Shown: positions 22,123 through 33,100 of the stretch, piece by piece
Layout: each line of letters opens with the position of its first letter
Numbering within the stretch: the stretch's first letter is position 1
Source: a virus
Length of the DNA: 64,000 bases
Virus record (IMG/VR): IMGVR_UViG_3300032297_000199
Coordinates: 1 to 64,000 of that record
Direction: 5' to 3' (one strand)
The notes under the pieces: model-generated
Seen by the model: the letters and a program-made list of their open reading frames with translations, nothing else
What the model was told of the DNA's origin: nothing
The model's database searches: none
Program-made: the position numbers and the translations under genes

Positions 22123-22809
22123 TTAGATACTTAATTTTTTATCAAAAAGATCGCCAATTGTGTCCATTAAATCTCCGAGCTTGCCGGAGTTTCTAAGACT
22201 CTTATATGTCAAATTTTGAATACTAAATTCCCCACCGGATGCTAGTCCTACTTTACGATAGTCGGCTAACATTTCTCTTACTTTTCTACAAACTTCTAAG
22301 TTACGGCTTTTAATAGCGTGATTGATAACTTCATCCCACTTTTTAACTTCTGCTTGTACAGCACTTTTATTATAACCAGTATTATCGGATTTTGGAGGCT
22401 TTGTCCATTTTCTACTTAGGATAGAGTATGCAGAACTAACAGCGGGTTCTGCTAAATCTTCTACATAGAGTTCAACTGGTATTCCGTGTACTTTAATGTC
22501 TCGCTGTTCTTTCCAATACTTTCTTTTAGTATCGAACAATTCGCTTACAGTCATTTCACATTCGACTTCACTGTAATCTACAATTAGATGTAGATCTAAA
22601 TCAGAATATGGAGAATAGTTATAGTTTGCCTGACTTCCAGAAATTATTAAGTCTTTAACATCAACAGGAACTTCTAAAAAATCGTAAAACTCCCTGGCAA
22701 TATTCAATAATGCAACTGTAACATCAGGCCGTAGATCTTTGCCAGCCCACAGTTTAGGATTAAGATCTTGGTGTATTTCTACAGGAGGAACGAATTCAAA
22801 AATATTCAT
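22123..22809 (-). CDS. Nucleotidyltransferase-fold protein (228 aa)
   Basis: Residues 58-74 GSQANYNYSPYSDLDLH match the pol-beta-type nucleotidyltransferase signature GSxxxG...SDxDxx, with D70 and D72 as metal ligands; the second Gly of the usual GS-x-xxG is absent. VPVELYVED at about 108-116 may carry the third acidic residue. T4-like aquatic phages often carry such a protein; the target is unknown. A late motif lies five bases upstream of the start. Confidence 0.75.
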   Translation of the reverse strand: MNIFEFVPPVEIHQDLNPKLWAGKDLRPDVTVALLNIAREFYDFLEVPVDVKDLIISGSQANYNYSPYSDLDLHLIVDYSEVECEMTVSELFDTKRKYWKEQRDIKVHGIPVELYVEDLAEPAVSSAYSILSRKWTKPPKSDNTGYNKSAVQAEVKKWDEVINHAIKSRNLEVCRKVREMLADYRKVGLASGGEFSIQNLTYKSLRNSGKLGDLMDTIGDLFDKKLSI

Positions 22810-22814
22810 ATCTA

Positions 22815-22820
22815 TATTTA
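22815..22820 (-). promoter_or_regulatory. Late promoter motif for the nucleotidyltransferase gene
   Basis: AATAAATA on the minus strand, with five bases (TAGAT) between the motif and ATG. Predicts a leaderless mRNA. Confidence 0.65.
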
Positions 22821-23348
22821 TTTTAACAAGTGATCAGGTGTCTGAGTAAAATAGCATGTCATACTAATACGAATATCTTTGTTAGCAGTAAACACACAAT
22901 GTGGCAACTCTGTGCGCCACACTACCGGTTGTTTAAGTTCAAATTGATCTATCTCTTCATACCTTGTATACATTAAATCCCAATATACAACCTTACCGCT
23001 TTTTCTAAGAATAGGTTTTCCTTTTGTAAATTCGTAAAGTTTAGTAACTGATCCTATACAATTAAGTATTGGCCATTGTATCCTAGCAGTAGGTGCTAGA
23101 TAGTCTAAATGCACCGTTGAAGTATCCGTGTCTTTTAATATAATAAAGGCAAACTGAGTAGGGACTAGTTCCAGCGATGCAAAGTAATCTTTTAGTTCAG
23201 GAACATAAGTTAATACTTTATTAGCGTCAAATTCGTGATTCCAAAATTCACACTTCTCTAAAAAAGTAGTCTCGTTTTTAATATAAGAATATAACTTTTC
23301 TGTTATTAGTTCCCAATTATTACATTCTAAATACCTGAAATTTGTCAT
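22818..23348 (-). CDS. Possible 2OG-Fe(II) oxygenase-like protein (176 aa)
   Basis: Residues about 78-82 VHLDY give an HxD pair. ARIQWPILNCIGS follows and the end has PHCVF...RISMTCYF, which could supply the distal His and the 2-oxoglutarate-binding Arg. This layout suits double-stranded beta-helix dioxygenases, and I recall similar proteins in cyanophage-like genomes, but overall similarity is weak by eye. It ends at 22818, just beyond the 22809 start. Confidence 0.5.
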   Translation of the reverse strand: MTNFRYLECNNWELITEKLYSYIKNETTFLEKCEFWNHEFDANKVLTYVPELKDYFASLELVPTQFAFIILKDTDTSTVHLDYLAPTARIQWPILNCIGSVTKLYEFTKGKPILRKSGKVVYWDLMYTRYEEIDQFELKQPVVWRTELPHCVFTANKDIRISMTCYFTQTPDHLLK

Positions 23349-27531: not shown

Positions 27532-27915
27532 ATGACAACTAAGGACGGCTTCGAAAAACAATTCCCTTTCATAACCTGTATTAAGACTACAGATAATGAA
27601 TATATAGGAATCTTAATAAATCTAGATGACAATGTCACGAGTATCTACGATCTAAGTACAATCAAGACTGATACAGAGCGTCAACTTTTTCTAGAAATGG
27701 GAGAAACTTGGTGGTGGGAGAGCAATAGAAAAATACCTATTAATATTTTTTTAAAGCAAGAAATGGTAGCATTCAGAGGGTACATCAAAACTTTTAATAG
27801 TAAAGATGTAGAGGTAGTATTCGGACCAATAGTAAATCTAAGCGAGATCGCAGAAAAAAGAGTTAAACGAAAAAGTATTCAACTCGTTAGAACTGTTAAG
27901 AAAATCCGTAGCTAA
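27532..27915 (+). CDS. Conserved hypothetical protein (127 aa)
   Basis: Starts MTTKDGFEKQFPFITCIKTT. A beta-rich N-terminus (YIGILINLDDNVTSIYDLS) is followed by WWWESNRKIPINIFLK and a basic C-terminal tail (KRVKRKSIQLVRTVKKIRS), which could bind nucleic acid. Its 3' end overlaps the convergent DnaE-like gene by 20 bases. No function known. Confidence 0.7.
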   Translation: MTTKDGFEKQFPFITCIKTTDNEYIGILINLDDNVTSIYDLSTIKTDTERQLFLEMGETWWWESNRKIPINIFLKQEMVAFRGYIKTFNSKDVEVVFGPIVNLSEIAEKRVKRKSIQLVRTVKKIRS

Positions 27916-28474
27916 TTCTTTCGCAAATTAGATTAAGTTGTAATACAATTAAATGGGCATAACCAACAGCATGACTTTTCTTAAAATAATAGGCGTCTTC
28001 TGTTTTAATCCAGACTTCATTGTCGAGCGCCTTGAAACCTTTTTCCTTACATACTGGGATGAGGTGCTTTTTACCAGGCCTAATCAAAGCAAGGACAATG
28101 GCTAGTTCTTCAATACTAGCAGGCTTTAATTCTTTCATCAAATTGTGATAACCGTTAATATGGAATAGTTGATCACATACTTCTTTTTCGTACATTAAAT
28201 CCCACAGCGGTTCTACACTAAGCAATTGATTAATATGTTCTTCGCTAGTCACTCCCGAATAGGCGCTAACATTTAAAAAGTCTATTTTAAAATAACCTCT
28301 TTCTTCTGCTTGTTCATACGGGATAGATGCCAAACCTGTTAACGGGTTAACTGGAATTTCGTGACAATACACTCCAGTATTGTGCTTCTTTCCGTCTGGC
28401 AAACTTGCAGGAATATGCTTAATAATTTTAAGCACTTCTGTCCTATCTCGGAAGTCAATATCGATATCAGGCAA
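27896..28474 (-). CDS. Miniature DNA polymerase III alpha (DnaE)-like protein (192 aa)
   Basis: Collinear short copy of the C-family polymerase core. MPDIDIDFRDRTEVL corresponds to the E. coli DnaE segment with D401 and D403 (here D3, D5). GYFKIDFLNV corresponds to the segment with D555 (here D65). Then LFHINGYHNLMKELKP and LALIRPGKKHLIP match the FQLESxGMxxLxxxLxP and ALxRPGP segments, and YYFKKSHAVGYAHL matches the NKSHAxAYA motif. The PHP, thumb and most fingers are missing, with about 80 residues lost between the aspartates. Its start overlaps the upstream zinc-protein gene by eight bases. Confidence 0.7.
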   Translation of the reverse strand: MPDIDIDFRDRTEVLKIIKHIPASLPDGKKHNTGVYCHEIPVNPLTGLASIPYEQAEERGYFKIDFLNVSAYSGVTSEEHINQLLSVEPLWDLMYEKEVCDQLFHINGYHNLMKELKPASIEELAIVLALIRPGKKHLIPVCKEKGFKALDNEVWIKTEDAYYFKKSHAVGYAHLIVLQLNLICERISYGFS

Positions 28475-29162
28475 TTCCGGCCTCCTTACATATTTCTTTT
28501 ACTAAAGCAGTGTCACCTGGATTATCTTTAAACTTCTTCAGCCAGAATGCAACATCAAATGCAGGTGTAATCAATTCTAATTGATCGTCGTTAAACTTAT
28601 TCACCATTTCTTTTCCGCTCTTACAGTTAAGTACGATCCAGGGAGATACAAGACCGTTTCTAATATCCTGTACTGCTCTGTTTAAATTGACATACAAGAA
28701 GTAATGTTCAAATGCCGCTCCACTTGTATCAGCCCAATCCATCATATGTTGTATGCTTCGTTGAACAGCAGACTCTACTGGCTCAACTTTTAGTAAGTCA
28801 TACAAATACTTTTCGTAAAGTTCATCCCTGCACCAATGATCTAATTTAACTCCACTCTTAATTACATATACAACAAATCGTTCAGGATATAGCGGATTTA
28901 CATTATTGATGAAACTTCCGAATTTTACAAACGCATTATAGAAAGAACTCTTACAAAACTCTTCATATGTTTTTTGTTTTCTAGAATTTTGTGTTAATTT
29001 ATAAAACTGATCAAATGCATAAAAACCTGTCTGTACTCTTTTCTCATCTTTTTGCAAGACGCGGCGTTTAGGCTCACACATGTGAGCAATTAAAGTTTTT
29101 TCTTTCATAAACTTTTTGCCACAATGTACACAGTCGTAAGGTTGATCAGCCAAAGTTATCAC
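28467..29162 (-). CDS. C2H2-type zinc-finger protein of the replication cluster (231 aa)
   Basis: Residues 11-28 YDCVHCGKKFMKEKTLIAHM fit a C-x2-C...H zinc finger; the second zinc ligand after H27 is probably C29. The remaining 190 residues are mixed helical with conserved-looking aromatic stretches. It is coupled to gp62 (four-base overlap) and to the DnaE-like gene, so a DNA-transaction role is likely. No T4 counterpart recognised. Confidence 0.7.
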   Translation of the reverse strand: MITLADQPYDCVHCGKKFMKEKTLIAHMCEPKRRVLQKDEKRVQTGFYAFDQFYKLTQNSRKQKTYEEFCKSSFYNAFVKFGSFINNVNPLYPERFVVYVIKSGVKLDHWCRDELYEKYLYDLLKVEPVESAVQRSIQHMMDWADTSGAAFEHYFLYVNLNRAVQDIRNGLVSPWIVLNCKSGKEMVNKFNDDQLELITPAFDVAFWLKKFKDNPGDTALVKEICKEAGIA

Positions 29163-29623
29163 TCGTATTCTTTCCGTTGTTTCTTGTCAAATCCCATCTT
29201 ATCAAACAACTCTTCTTTGTCTTTTTTATCCATCATCGATGCCAGTATTTTAATTTCTCCCATCTTCATAGTAGGATACAGTTCTACTAGCAATTTCTCA
29301 ATCTTGTTTGCTTTTTCTTTTTTGCCGGCAGCAAGATAAGGATGATAGAAGTTAGAACCGATTCCAGTAGCGGCAAATAGTTTCCATAGGAGAGCTTTAT
29401 GATTCTTACTTAATAGCCAATGATTTTTATTAACATACTCGTTAGTAGTTTCAATAAACCATTCTTGTATATCTCTGTCTGCTTGTACATTACTAGTGTA
29501 CCGCATTAAAATAAATGGACTAAATGCTTTCTTTTCTTCGTCTGTTAAGTTGTCATAAAAATTGTAGTTCTTTTGATCTACAGCATTAAGTTCTCGTTTA
29601 ATATCTAGTTTTGCTGTTGCCAT
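29159..29623 (-). CDS. gp62: Sliding-clamp loader small subunit, gp62-like (154 aa)
   Basis: Opening ATAKLDIKRELNAVDQKNYN, then DNLTDEEKKAFSPFILMRYT and the ATNExVNxxxx-type helix (ETTNEYVNKNHWLLSKN), match gp62 of T4-like phages as I know it. It would partner gp44, not in this window. I prefer ATG 29623, which overlaps the upstream stop (TAATG), over the in-frame ATG at 29638. Confidence 0.7.
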   Translation of the reverse strand: MATAKLDIKRELNAVDQKNYNFYDNLTDEEKKAFSPFILMRYTSNVQADRDIQEWFIETTNEYVNKNHWLLSKNHKALLWKLFAATGIGSNFYHPYLAAGKKEKANKIEKLLVELYPTMKMGEIKILASMMDKKDKEELFDKMGFDKKQRKEYE

Positions 29624-29916
29624 TATACTGGATGCCAATCTGGTGGTAGTGGATTATCTTTACTTAGATGATATATTATTATACACTGATCAAGTGCTTT
29701 TTGTAAAGCAGGATTATTCTTAGATGCTCGTCGAATCTCGCCCCATAATTTAGCATCCATGATGTGTTCGCGTAGAGGCCTACCGTCTTCAGTTCGAGGA
29801 TCGTAATCGTATCCAATTTCTTTCCTTGTGCTAGGATCGGACCCAATTTCGCGAGCATAAACAGTTCCTTTATCTCGCTCGTATATGTATGTTGCACCAG
29901 GTTTAAGACTGCCCAT
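29623..29916 (-). CDS. Conserved T4-like hypothetical protein (97 aa)
   Basis: LKPGATYIYERDKGTVYARE followed by RKEIGYDYDPR and ALDQCIIIYHLSKD is a layout seen in many aquatic T4-like phages. Small alpha/beta protein, function unknown. Its TAA overlaps the gp62 start, pointing to coupled synthesis. Confidence 0.7.
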   Translation of the reverse strand: MGSLKPGATYIYERDKGTVYAREIGSDPSTRKEIGYDYDPRTEDGRPLREHIMDAKLWGEIRRASKNNPALQKALDQCIIIYHLSKDNPLPPDWHPV

Positions 29917-30423: not shown

Positions 30424-31904
30424 TAATACTTTACCTTTTCTATTGTAAATGGGTATTGAGCTTCTTTGTAGAATCTCTTTCGTTCTGTTAAGTGTTTTTT
30501 AGCATATTTCGAACTTGCTGTCAAGTCCCAGATCTGGACGAAGTCCTTGTCGTCAGCTTTTCTAATGCCTCGCCCAATACTTTGTATAACCCGTGTAAAG
30601 CTCTTTCCGGACTCCAAAAGAACCAGATTAAAAATCCTAGGAATATTAATGCCCACAGCGGCCACACCGTAAGTCGCCACAATAATCTTGTTAGTGCTTG
30701 TTTTAATTTCGTCATATTCTTCTTTTCGATCTTTAGTTTTTACAGACCCAGAAATAAACGCAACATCCGGTTCTTCTTTTTGTATGCTGAATAACTCACT
30801 TAAATTTGTTTGTAAAAAATTACCACTTTCAATTCTATCTACTAGAACTAGGGTGTTTCCTGAGTTAGAAATTTGTTTAATTAGTTTAGAAATCCATGTC
30901 ATTCTATCAGTATCAGTGACTAGGAATTTTAATTCAGAAGCGTAACTCTCAAATTCTTTCCACTCTGCTGTTTGAATAATGTTTACATGACATTGACTCA
31001 ATACACCTTTTTCTTGTAACTCATGTGCGGCAACTCTATGAACTACTTCACCTAAGCTAACTTTGATATTTTGGAAGTCAATATCGTCTTTAGGAATGGT
31101 ACCAGTTAATCCCCAACGAATAGGCGCATTAGCAATGTTTTGTGTAAGTAATCTTTTTAAGACATCTGCCTTTGCCATGTGAACTTCGTCAACCATAACT
31201 GTAGACACGCCATCTAAGAATTCTGCTAGGCTTAACAAGTCATCATTATCCTTGGATTTTTTGTCTAAAATATTGAGACTCTGCCAAGTACAAATAGTGT
31301 GTGTTCTTCCTAGTTCTTTTCTATCACCGTAGTACACACCTACATCTAATTTACAGTTAATAAAGTCTTCTTCTGTTTGTTCAACTAAACTCTTGTTAGG
31401 GACAATGGTTATTGTTCGACCATATTTTTCACAGATTTTACTCAAAGTTGCAGTGGTAATTGTCTTACCAAAGCCTGTGGCAATTTCTTGAATACACTGA
31501 GGATTCTCAAGAAACTTATTTACTACTTCGACCTGATCATCACGAAGTCTAATCTTCTCTCCGGCAAATCTATGTCCTTCCGGCCATGTTTGATCACCCC
31601 AAAAATCTTCGGAAATTTTGGTGAAATTTAGTGGTACTGAAACACGGTGATCTTCGACGATTGGATCGTAGCCAGCACTAACCAGTTCTTCTACCACCTC
31701 AGGTAATAGACTCATGTATGTTGCGCCGCCTAGACCGAAGAAGCTGGTGCATCCATCCCACCTACCTAGTTTGTAAGCAGGAAGATATCGAGCTTTTTGG
31801 TCAAAATATTTGAATTTTTTGACCAGATTTTTCCTGGTATCTAAATCCAGGTTTTCAATTTTAACATTGACCTCGTCTTTTATGACAATTCTACATGTGG
31901 CCAC
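30423..31904 (-). CDS. uvsW: UvsW-like RNA-DNA / DNA helicase (493 aa)
   Basis: SF2 helicase: KLGRWDGCTSFFGLGG in the N-terminal DNA-binding domain, motif I ATGFGKT at 142-148, motif II VDEVH, motif III GLTGTIP, motif VI QSIGRGIRK. Length matches T4 UvsW (503), which unwinds R-loops and branched DNA in recombination-dependent replication. The start is a GTG with GGGAG upstream; it overlaps the previous gene by 25 bases. Confidence 0.9.
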   Translation of the reverse strand: MATCRIVIKDEVNVKIENLDLDTRKNLVKKFKYFDQKARYLPAYKLGRWDGCTSFFGLGGATYMSLLPEVVEELVSAGYDPIVEDHRVSVPLNFTKISEDFWGDQTWPEGHRFAGEKIRLRDDQVEVVNKFLENPQCIQEIATGFGKTITTATLSKICEKYGRTITIVPNKSLVEQTEEDFINCKLDVGVYYGDRKELGRTHTICTWQSLNILDKKSKDNDDLLSLAEFLDGVSTVMVDEVHMAKADVLKRLLTQNIANAPIRWGLTGTIPKDDIDFQNIKVSLGEVVHRVAAHELQEKGVLSQCHVNIIQTAEWKEFESYASELKFLVTDTDRMTWISKLIKQISNSGNTLVLVDRIESGNFLQTNLSELFSIQKEEPDVAFISGSVKTKDRKEEYDEIKTSTNKIIVATYGVAAVGINIPRIFNLVLLESGKSFTRVIQSIGRGIRKADDKDFVQIWDLTASSKYAKKHLTERKRFYKEAQYPFTIEKVKY

Positions 31905-33100
31905 TTAGTAACTCCCTTTGTTGCTTTGCTATTATACACAATTATATCAGGGAAGTCTTGTAAAAAGGATGTCAGCGTGTAATGAGCGGTGTTCATTGAA
32001 CCTAAATTGATAACACTATTAAACTGTATTCCGCTCTTGATCACAGGCTTAGGTAATTTTTGACTCACAAACACAAATTTAGTGTCTTCGCTTATTGGAC
32101 TGTTAAGTCCATAATCTTTCACTAATTCGTTAAACATCCTATCATTACCGTTCTCAGTCCTAAACATCACAGAAACCTGATTTTTCTGGAAATTTTGTGA
32201 ATTTAAGAAACTCCACCATTTTTTTAGGTTAGCAATTTCTGTGCCTGCTGGTATGATAACCAAGCAAGGACTAGCATATCTAACTATGTCTGAAAAATGT
32301 TCAATTTCATACTTTTCCGAATCAACCTCTAATCTTATCTTCCCAGTAGTAGACAAGAATTTTCTGGTTAATTTGGGAATTTCCAGGTTTTTTATGGTAT
32401 CATTGATATCTTCGTCCCATACACTAATACCGTACCGTTTAGCATGGAAAAGAGTTTCTAATAAACCTAAACCTCTCGGTTGGGGAATCGAAGGGTGTGT
32501 ATTAACATATGAAAATTCTTCACCGTTTGATGTCAAACGAGGCACATATCGGTCAAAATCTGCCGAAATTTCTTCAAGTTGAGACCATATTTCGTCAAAT
32601 TTTTCACAGGTAGCAAAACCAGTAGGAACTAGTACATTCTTTATGTAATCCACACTTCCTTCGGTTAAAGAAAACATCCAAGCCTTAGCTTCACTGTCCC
32701 AAGTAGCATTGTCCGGAGCTGACCTACTGTTCCATGCCCGTAGCTCAGATAGCAATTTTTCATCGTATGGGAAGGAAACTTTGATAGATTTCAGTCTATC
32801 TTGTTCAACCACTTCGACCTTTTTAGACTGTATGGCAATTTTTCGGATAGGTAGCCTAAAAGTTGGATTGTCAGTAAAAACAGTGATATCCTTCCCGAGG
32901 ACTACTGATAGCTGGACTCTATATTTTTTACAAAATTTAACTGCTAGTGAGGATTGCTTCTCACTTAGTCCGTAACCTCGAAGAATTTGGTCAGAAAAAC
33001 TGGAGAGGAGAGGTTGATCTCTGGTCTCTATGTCCAGAGGTGGTAGAAAAAGATATTGACCGCTACTTGAAAGACGATCAATTAGGTCTTCAATGTACAT
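31880..33100 (-). CDS. Helicase-like protein without Walker motifs, HARP-like N-terminus (406 aa)
   Basis: Residues about 105-165 (SIKVSFPYDEKLLSELRAW then ATWDSEAKAWMFSLTEGSVD) resemble the HARP domain of SMARCAL1-type annealing helicases. The C-terminal 150 residues (PCLVIIPAGTEIANLKKWW, later FVFVSQKLPK) have strand/helix spacing like a RecA-type domain but no GKT or DExH. Its end overlaps the UvsW start by 25 bases. It may be a non-catalytic accessory to UvsW. Confidence 0.55.
   Translation of the reverse strand: MYIEDLIDRLSSSGQYLFLPPLDIETRDQPLLSSFSDQILRGYGLSEKQSSLAVKFCKKYRVQLSVVLGKDITVFTDNPTFRLPIRKIAIQSKKVEVVEQDRLKSIKVSFPYDEKLLSELRAWNSRSAPDNATWDSEAKAWMFSLTEGSVDYIKNVLVPTGFATCEKFDEIWSQLEEISADFDRYVPRLTSNGEEFSYVNTHPSIPQPRGLGLLETLFHAKRYGISVWDEDINDTIKNLEIPKLTRKFLSTTGKIRLEVDSEKYEIEHFSDIVRYASPCLVIIPAGTEIANLKKWWSFLNSQNFQKNQVSVMFRTENGNDRMFNELVKDYGLNSPISEDTKFVFVSQKLPKPVIKSGIQFNSVINLGSMNTAHYTLTSFLQDFPDIIVYNSKATKGVTKWPHVELS

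Follow-up and report, generated by a model that had tools for sequence, protein, structure and literature searches.

Known forms of DNA polymerase III alpha

The known DNA polymerase III (Pol III) alpha chains usually comprise some thousand residues or more. DnaE of Escherichia coli is one chain of 1160 residues, which includes PHP, thumb and complete fingers as well as clamp-binding, OB and tau-binding parts, and in cyanobacteria DnaE is encoded by two genes with a split intein, the large halves being joined by protein splicing. For the group 2.2 jumbo phages, among which Atu_ph07 is named, a split minimal Pol III alpha has been proposed from sequence analysis (Iyer et al., 2021, Viruses 13:63, PMC7824862). 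Here, a gene of this kind is described from a viral DNA of 64,000 nucleotides (positions 1 to 64,000 of the IMG/VR record IMGVR_UViG_3300032297_000199; this whole stretch is called the window). The gene lies at 27896..28474 on the minus strand and encodes, by 192 codons plus stop, a protein of family PHROG_11778. With a probability of roughly 0.8 this protein represents the C-terminal half, binding metal and template, of a minimal C-family (Pol III alpha/DnaE-like) nucleotidyltransferase composed of two chains. It is referred to as half B, and its N-terminal partner as half A.

Since the split enzyme has been published by Iyer et al. (2021), the gene belongs to an already described enzyme type, and no difference of kind was found: the core is encoded by two genes, one for its N-terminal and one for its C-terminal part (in relatives of the window's phage), and a family B polymerase (PolB) is co-resident. 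Atu_ph07 itself carries both halves. In the CBB genome paper, half A was recorded as a truncated alpha subunit (PMC5259590), and in the open-licence literature searched no report of an experimental test of the split enzyme was found. The present analysis adds the exact seam, the invariance of single residues and the near-complete co-occurrence of the halves, as well as their occurrence in 141-kb phages, with both halves in one of them.

In comparison to E. coli DnaE, the palm motifs and catalytic residues stand in the same order, whereas the phage enzyme consists of about 364 residues in two chains. Like the cyanobacterial DnaE it is encoded by two genes, but the split site differs and the phage halves are small. 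Furthermore, there is no room for an intein piece, because half B starts directly at its first catalytic motif, PDIDIDF.

Half B is derived from DnaE

The protein is a full-length match to PHROG_11778 (E 1.9e-60) and also matches the DnaE family phrog_405 (E 1.6e-8). The Pfam finger domain PF17657 gave an E-value of 2e-4 over about 30 residues, just under the cut-off. With the profile of the PHROG_11778 family, nine PDB matches were obtained up to E 1 and all nine are Pol III alpha chains. On E. coli DnaE the half-B profile scored 14.9 bits, in contrast to at most -0.7 bits for 50 column-shuffled profiles.

The alignment to E. coli DnaE assigns the catalytic residues directly. PDIDIDF (residues 2-8; 28451..28471, minus strand, as for all motifs of the gene) contains D3, D5 and D7, equivalent to D401, D403 and D405, and the split of the palm lies just before it. 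KHNTGV (residues 30-35; 28370..28387), aligned by eye, corresponds to KHAGGV of DnaE with H31 as H511, and FKIDFLNV (residues 62-69; 28268..28291) contributes K63 (K553) and D65 (D555). All three metal-binding aspartates of the C-family core, from PDIDIDF and the downstream KxD, are thereby present in this chain. The remnant of the fingers spans residues 103-136 (28067..28168), namely LFHINGYHNLMKELKP (residues 103-118) followed by LALIRPGKK (residues 128-136) with R132 equivalent to R639, as seen by the alignment and PF17657. Finally, KSHAVGYA (residues 166-173; 27956..27979) harbors H168 (H760) and Y172 (Y764).

This agrees with a previous sequence-only reading of the window, which had derived the protein from DnaE and equated D3, D5 and D65 with D401, D403 and D555; these residues are invariant in 58 homologues. 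The motifs that it had noted likewise proved to be present in the order of DnaE; in the protein this order is PDIDIDF, KHxxGV, KIDF, LALIRPG, KSHAxxYA. Invariant in 58 of 58 homologues are D3, D5, D7, H31, G34, K63, D65, R132, P133, K135, H168 and Y172. Among them, K135 is specific for the phage proteins, and E. coli DnaE has a proline (642) at this position.

The large losses relative to DnaE, also noticed before, were confirmed by the alignment: neither PHP nor the thumb is present, and of the fingers only a minor part. The thumb is judged to be absent because D7 and H31 are separated by only 23 residues, where E. coli DnaE has 105. Between RPG and KSHA, half B has no counterpart to about 100 residues of the E. 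coli fingers (roughly 642-741), so it does not contain a full fingers domain. In the 192 residues of half B together with the 172 of its partner there is no room for PHP, thumb, clamp-binding, OB or tau-binding domains. The sequence-only reading had suggested that the protein could be a template for a contact with the host clamp or tau. Against this speaks that none of the clamp-, OB- or tau-binding regions is kept. The sole Q-L-like stretch of half B, QLNLIC, was considered as a clamp-binding motif and rejected, as in our reading of the alignment it falls on the DnaE finger helix after KSHSAAY.

The gene is under strong purifying selection. Against its closest relative (96% identical), the nonsynonymous (dN) and synonymous (dS) divergences are 0.015 and 0.26, giving a dN/dS of 0.059, and the median over 63 less saturated pairs is 0.09. 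That the protein is a decaying fragment of a formerly complete DnaE gene, as the short gene and its TTG start might suggest, is therefore of practically negligible probability: these ratios of about 0.06-0.09 are joined by a family extending over 63 phage records and hundreds of viral contigs, and the gene has a good ribosome-binding site. Here, the sequence AAGGAGG (28481..28487, minus strand) stands 6 nt before the TTG as a Shine-Dalgarno element, and the start overlaps slightly with the 3' end of the gene upstream.

A quite improbable alternative is that the DnaE-derived protein is a scaffold, a non-catalytic subunit or regulator of the replisome, which includes the previously proposed regulatory decoy. 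The large deletions relative to DnaE and the presence of a separate PolB replicase would fit to this. However, the metal-binding aspartates, K63 and the GxGRGS motif of the partner are invariant over a long divergence, and the purifying selection is strong. The decoy is specifically disfavoured because the catalytic residues are invariant in both halves and dN/dS is about 0.06.

The partner half and the seam

The 192-residue chain lacks the first part of the palm and with it the nucleotide-binding motif GxGRGS. This was overlooked in the sequence-only reading: the protein is only half of the catalytic palm. A search with PF07733 revealed a second small open reading frame in nine of nine named phages and three of four long contigs, besides weak traces of half B. 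The encoded protein, half A, has about 172 residues, matches PF07733 well above the cut-off and belongs to PHROG_11127 (full-length match, E 3e-46). Both PHROG_11127 and PHROG_11778 are labelled 'DNA polymerase', labels which do not pair them. Half A aligns with residues 210-393 of E. coli DnaE and carries GxGRGS, which is invariant in 51 half-A proteins.

The C-terminus of half A lies at EFLK/R/N, corresponding to FLN393 of E. coli DnaE, and half B begins at 399, which leaves a gap of about five residues between the end of half A and PDIDIDF. In all 80 metagenomic half-A reading frames that were retrieved, the end coincides with EFLK/R or lies no more than about ten residues from it. A joint profile of both halves scored 47.3 bits on E. 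coli DnaE (E 1.2e-11), more than the sum of half A (26.5) and half B (14.9), and its alignment crosses the junction unbroken with a five-residue insertion; 50 column-shuffled joint profiles reached at most 1.9 bits. Searches with PF17657 and PF07733 gave no convincing third fragment of the polymerase.

Of the earlier proposals, a small nucleotidyltransferase came closest, but not as a chain acting alone, since the palm part with GxGRGS is a separate gene. Consequently, the 192-residue protein as a complete small enzyme was rejected once half A was found. All three carboxylates do reside on this chain; yet the nucleotide-binding motif is encoded by another, almost always co-occurring gene and the DxD segment is not confidently folded alone, making a stand-alone enzyme very improbable.

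Two observations on half A are added. The families PHROG_13169 and PHROG_7513, of about 460 residues, match half A in their C-terminal part and may be larger DnaE proteins with an identical split site. One contig (G012) contains two equal-scoring, inverted copies of half A at 22496-23005 (plus strand) and 94662-95171 (minus strand), perhaps an assembly artefact.

Co-occurrence of both halves and of PolB

By tblastn in 50,697 phage records, half A was found in 60 and half B in 63. Half B is present in every half-A record whose half-B row is among the matches listed; RAS14 is not among them. Half B without half A was obtained by tblastn for W12-3 as well as for the Alishewanella phages Slicko01 and Slickus01. 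W12-3, an unverified record of 109 kb, is from a phage type whose genomes have about 350 kb, and is probably a partial genome. Slicko01 and Slickus01 are sister phages of 141 kb; Slicko01 was searched with the profile, which recovered half A in a reading frame of 170 residues (E 2.5e-17). Among eight contigs above 200 kb, seven carry both halves and one only half A. Because these phages are related, the co-occurrence is supporting rather than independent evidence.

PolB was present in 12 of 14 records, both exceptions being fragments, including the window's own record, and it was present in Slicko01 as well. PolB extends over two open frames in Atu_ph07 (418 and 578 residues), Cassandra (825 and 379) and Slicko01 (578 and 322), where it appears to be split. 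A DnaQ proofreader as fixed partner was rejected, as it was found in seven of the nine named phages, in contrast to only one of eight metagenomic relatives.

Half B was also observed on contigs of bacterial and archaeal metagenome-assembled genomes, one of which has two such contigs. A cellular home of half B was rejected, as the clear full-length matches in contigs of cellular genomes are contigs of such assembled genomes. These are probably jumbo-phage contigs binned with their hosts, and weak matches in Clostridia look like ordinary DnaE/PolC.

Structure prediction and possible function

Half A is predicted with confidence (mean predicted local distance difference test, pLDDT, 91). For both halves, Foldseek returned solely Pol III alpha/PolC at the top, in ranks 1-14 for half A and 1-12 for half B.

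In the proposed enzyme, half A would form the first part of a Pol beta-like palm, in which GxGRGS holds the incoming nucleotide, and half B would provide the metal-binding D3, D5 and D65 together with K63 and a reduced finger element contacting the template. The two chains would be held together non-covalently, with a single active site formed at the seam. Assembly and catalysis of the pair are likely, and template-directed DNA synthesis would be favoured with some reserve. Owing to the lack of thumb, clamp-binding and tau-binding parts, a short-patch, distributive mode of action would be expected.

Several points weigh against such an enzyme. With a stretch of about 100 finger residues missing, the activity as a polymerase may have changed or disappeared. 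The predicted fold of half B is of moderate confidence (pLDDT 75), and its lowest part in the single-chain model is precisely the DxD segment (residues 1-10, mean pLDDT 46), although this would be expected if the strand partners sit on the other chain. None of the Foldseek E-values is better than 0.06, which is weak, so that the weight of this result lies in the consistency of the matches. The co-occurrence partly reflects shared phage ancestry. Finally, searches of the window's own record, a fragment of 82 kb, gave no half A; this fragment need not contain it, because in three relatives half A is located about 150-165 kb from half B along the contig.

An active two-chain enzyme might also not be a templated polymerase, acting instead as a terminal or primer-end nucleotidyltransferase or as a modifier of RNA or DNA ends. 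The thumb and most of the template-gripping fingers are gone, leaving only the palm and a short finger remnant, and K135 may replace lost basic finger residues. On the contrary, the finger motifs that were kept (LxP...LALIRPG and KSHAxxYA) are those of the template-directed DnaE and both genes are found among replication genes, which renders this explanation unlikely.

PolB is the probable replicase of these phages, and therefore the two-chain enzyme would be an accessory one. Beside PolB it might be used, for instance, for gap filling or primer hand-off, on one strand or in repair, where any particular cellular role is doubtful at best. Tentatively, the thumbless two-chain C-family enzyme of about 364 residues with its active site at the seam may serve as a working accessory polymerase of a PolB-replicating phage lineage. 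A natural core-only version, cut through the active site, would show the minimal needs of the C-family fold and the reason for which a bacterial-type polymerase core is retained in phages that have a PolB of their own. If true, the pair would rank with the smallest polymerases of the C family and provide a model for the ancestral core of Pol III. Since the pair is small and present in the laboratory-grown phages 121Q, PBECO4, RaK2, PA5oct and Paride, the prediction of 2021 is directly testable.

Gene neighbourhood

The upstream gene overlapping the start of half B (28467..29162, minus strand) belongs to phrog_11058 and encodes an N-terminal zinc finger with invariant C11, C14, H27 and C29, resembling eukaryotic C2H2 fingers (best PDB match E 4e-10). 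The sequence-only reading had placed half B among gp62 and other replication genes; for this adjacent gene, profile searches of Pfam, PHROG and PDB gave no match to gp62 of T4, only the zinc finger. phrog_11058 is located next to or near half B in nine of nine named phages, and its protein is a possible partner. Further conserved neighbours are phrog_11758 (29159..29638, minus strand) and the convergent phrog_11637 (27532..27915, plus strand), which overlaps the 3' end of the half-B gene.

In most named phages, half B lies downstream of uvsW, phrog_11758 and phrog_11058 and before a gp61-like primase and a gp41-like helicase. Half A is found two or three genes from a gp44-like clamp loader in RaK2, PBECO4, Cassandra, Atu_ph07, SCTP-2 and XacN1, and farther from it in Phosso. 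Both halves are separated by about 30-34 kb in RaK2 and PBECO4; the distance is about 15 kb in XacN1 and exceeds 100 kb in several others. In Slicko01 (OQ508956.1, 67.5-82 kb), which at 141 kb is not a jumbo phage, the halves are about 11 kb apart on a single strand within one replication cluster: a uvsW-like gene, a weak phrog_11279 match and half A are followed later by the clamp loader, phrog_11758, a weak phrog_11058 match, one small reading frame and half B. The order is identical in XacN1, where about nine genes separate phrog_11058 from half B. Slicko01 and XacN1 thus have in one piece the two replication blocks which lie apart in the other phages.

Two other genes of the window are mentioned. 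Between the uvsY-like and uvsW-like genes, a reading frame of 406 residues (31880-33100, minus strand) has no PHROG or Pfam match. At 22123-22809 (minus strand), a nucleotidyltransferase with the motif GSQANYNYSPYSDLDLHLI is encoded, for which PF01909 (NTP_transf_2) scored just above the cut-off.
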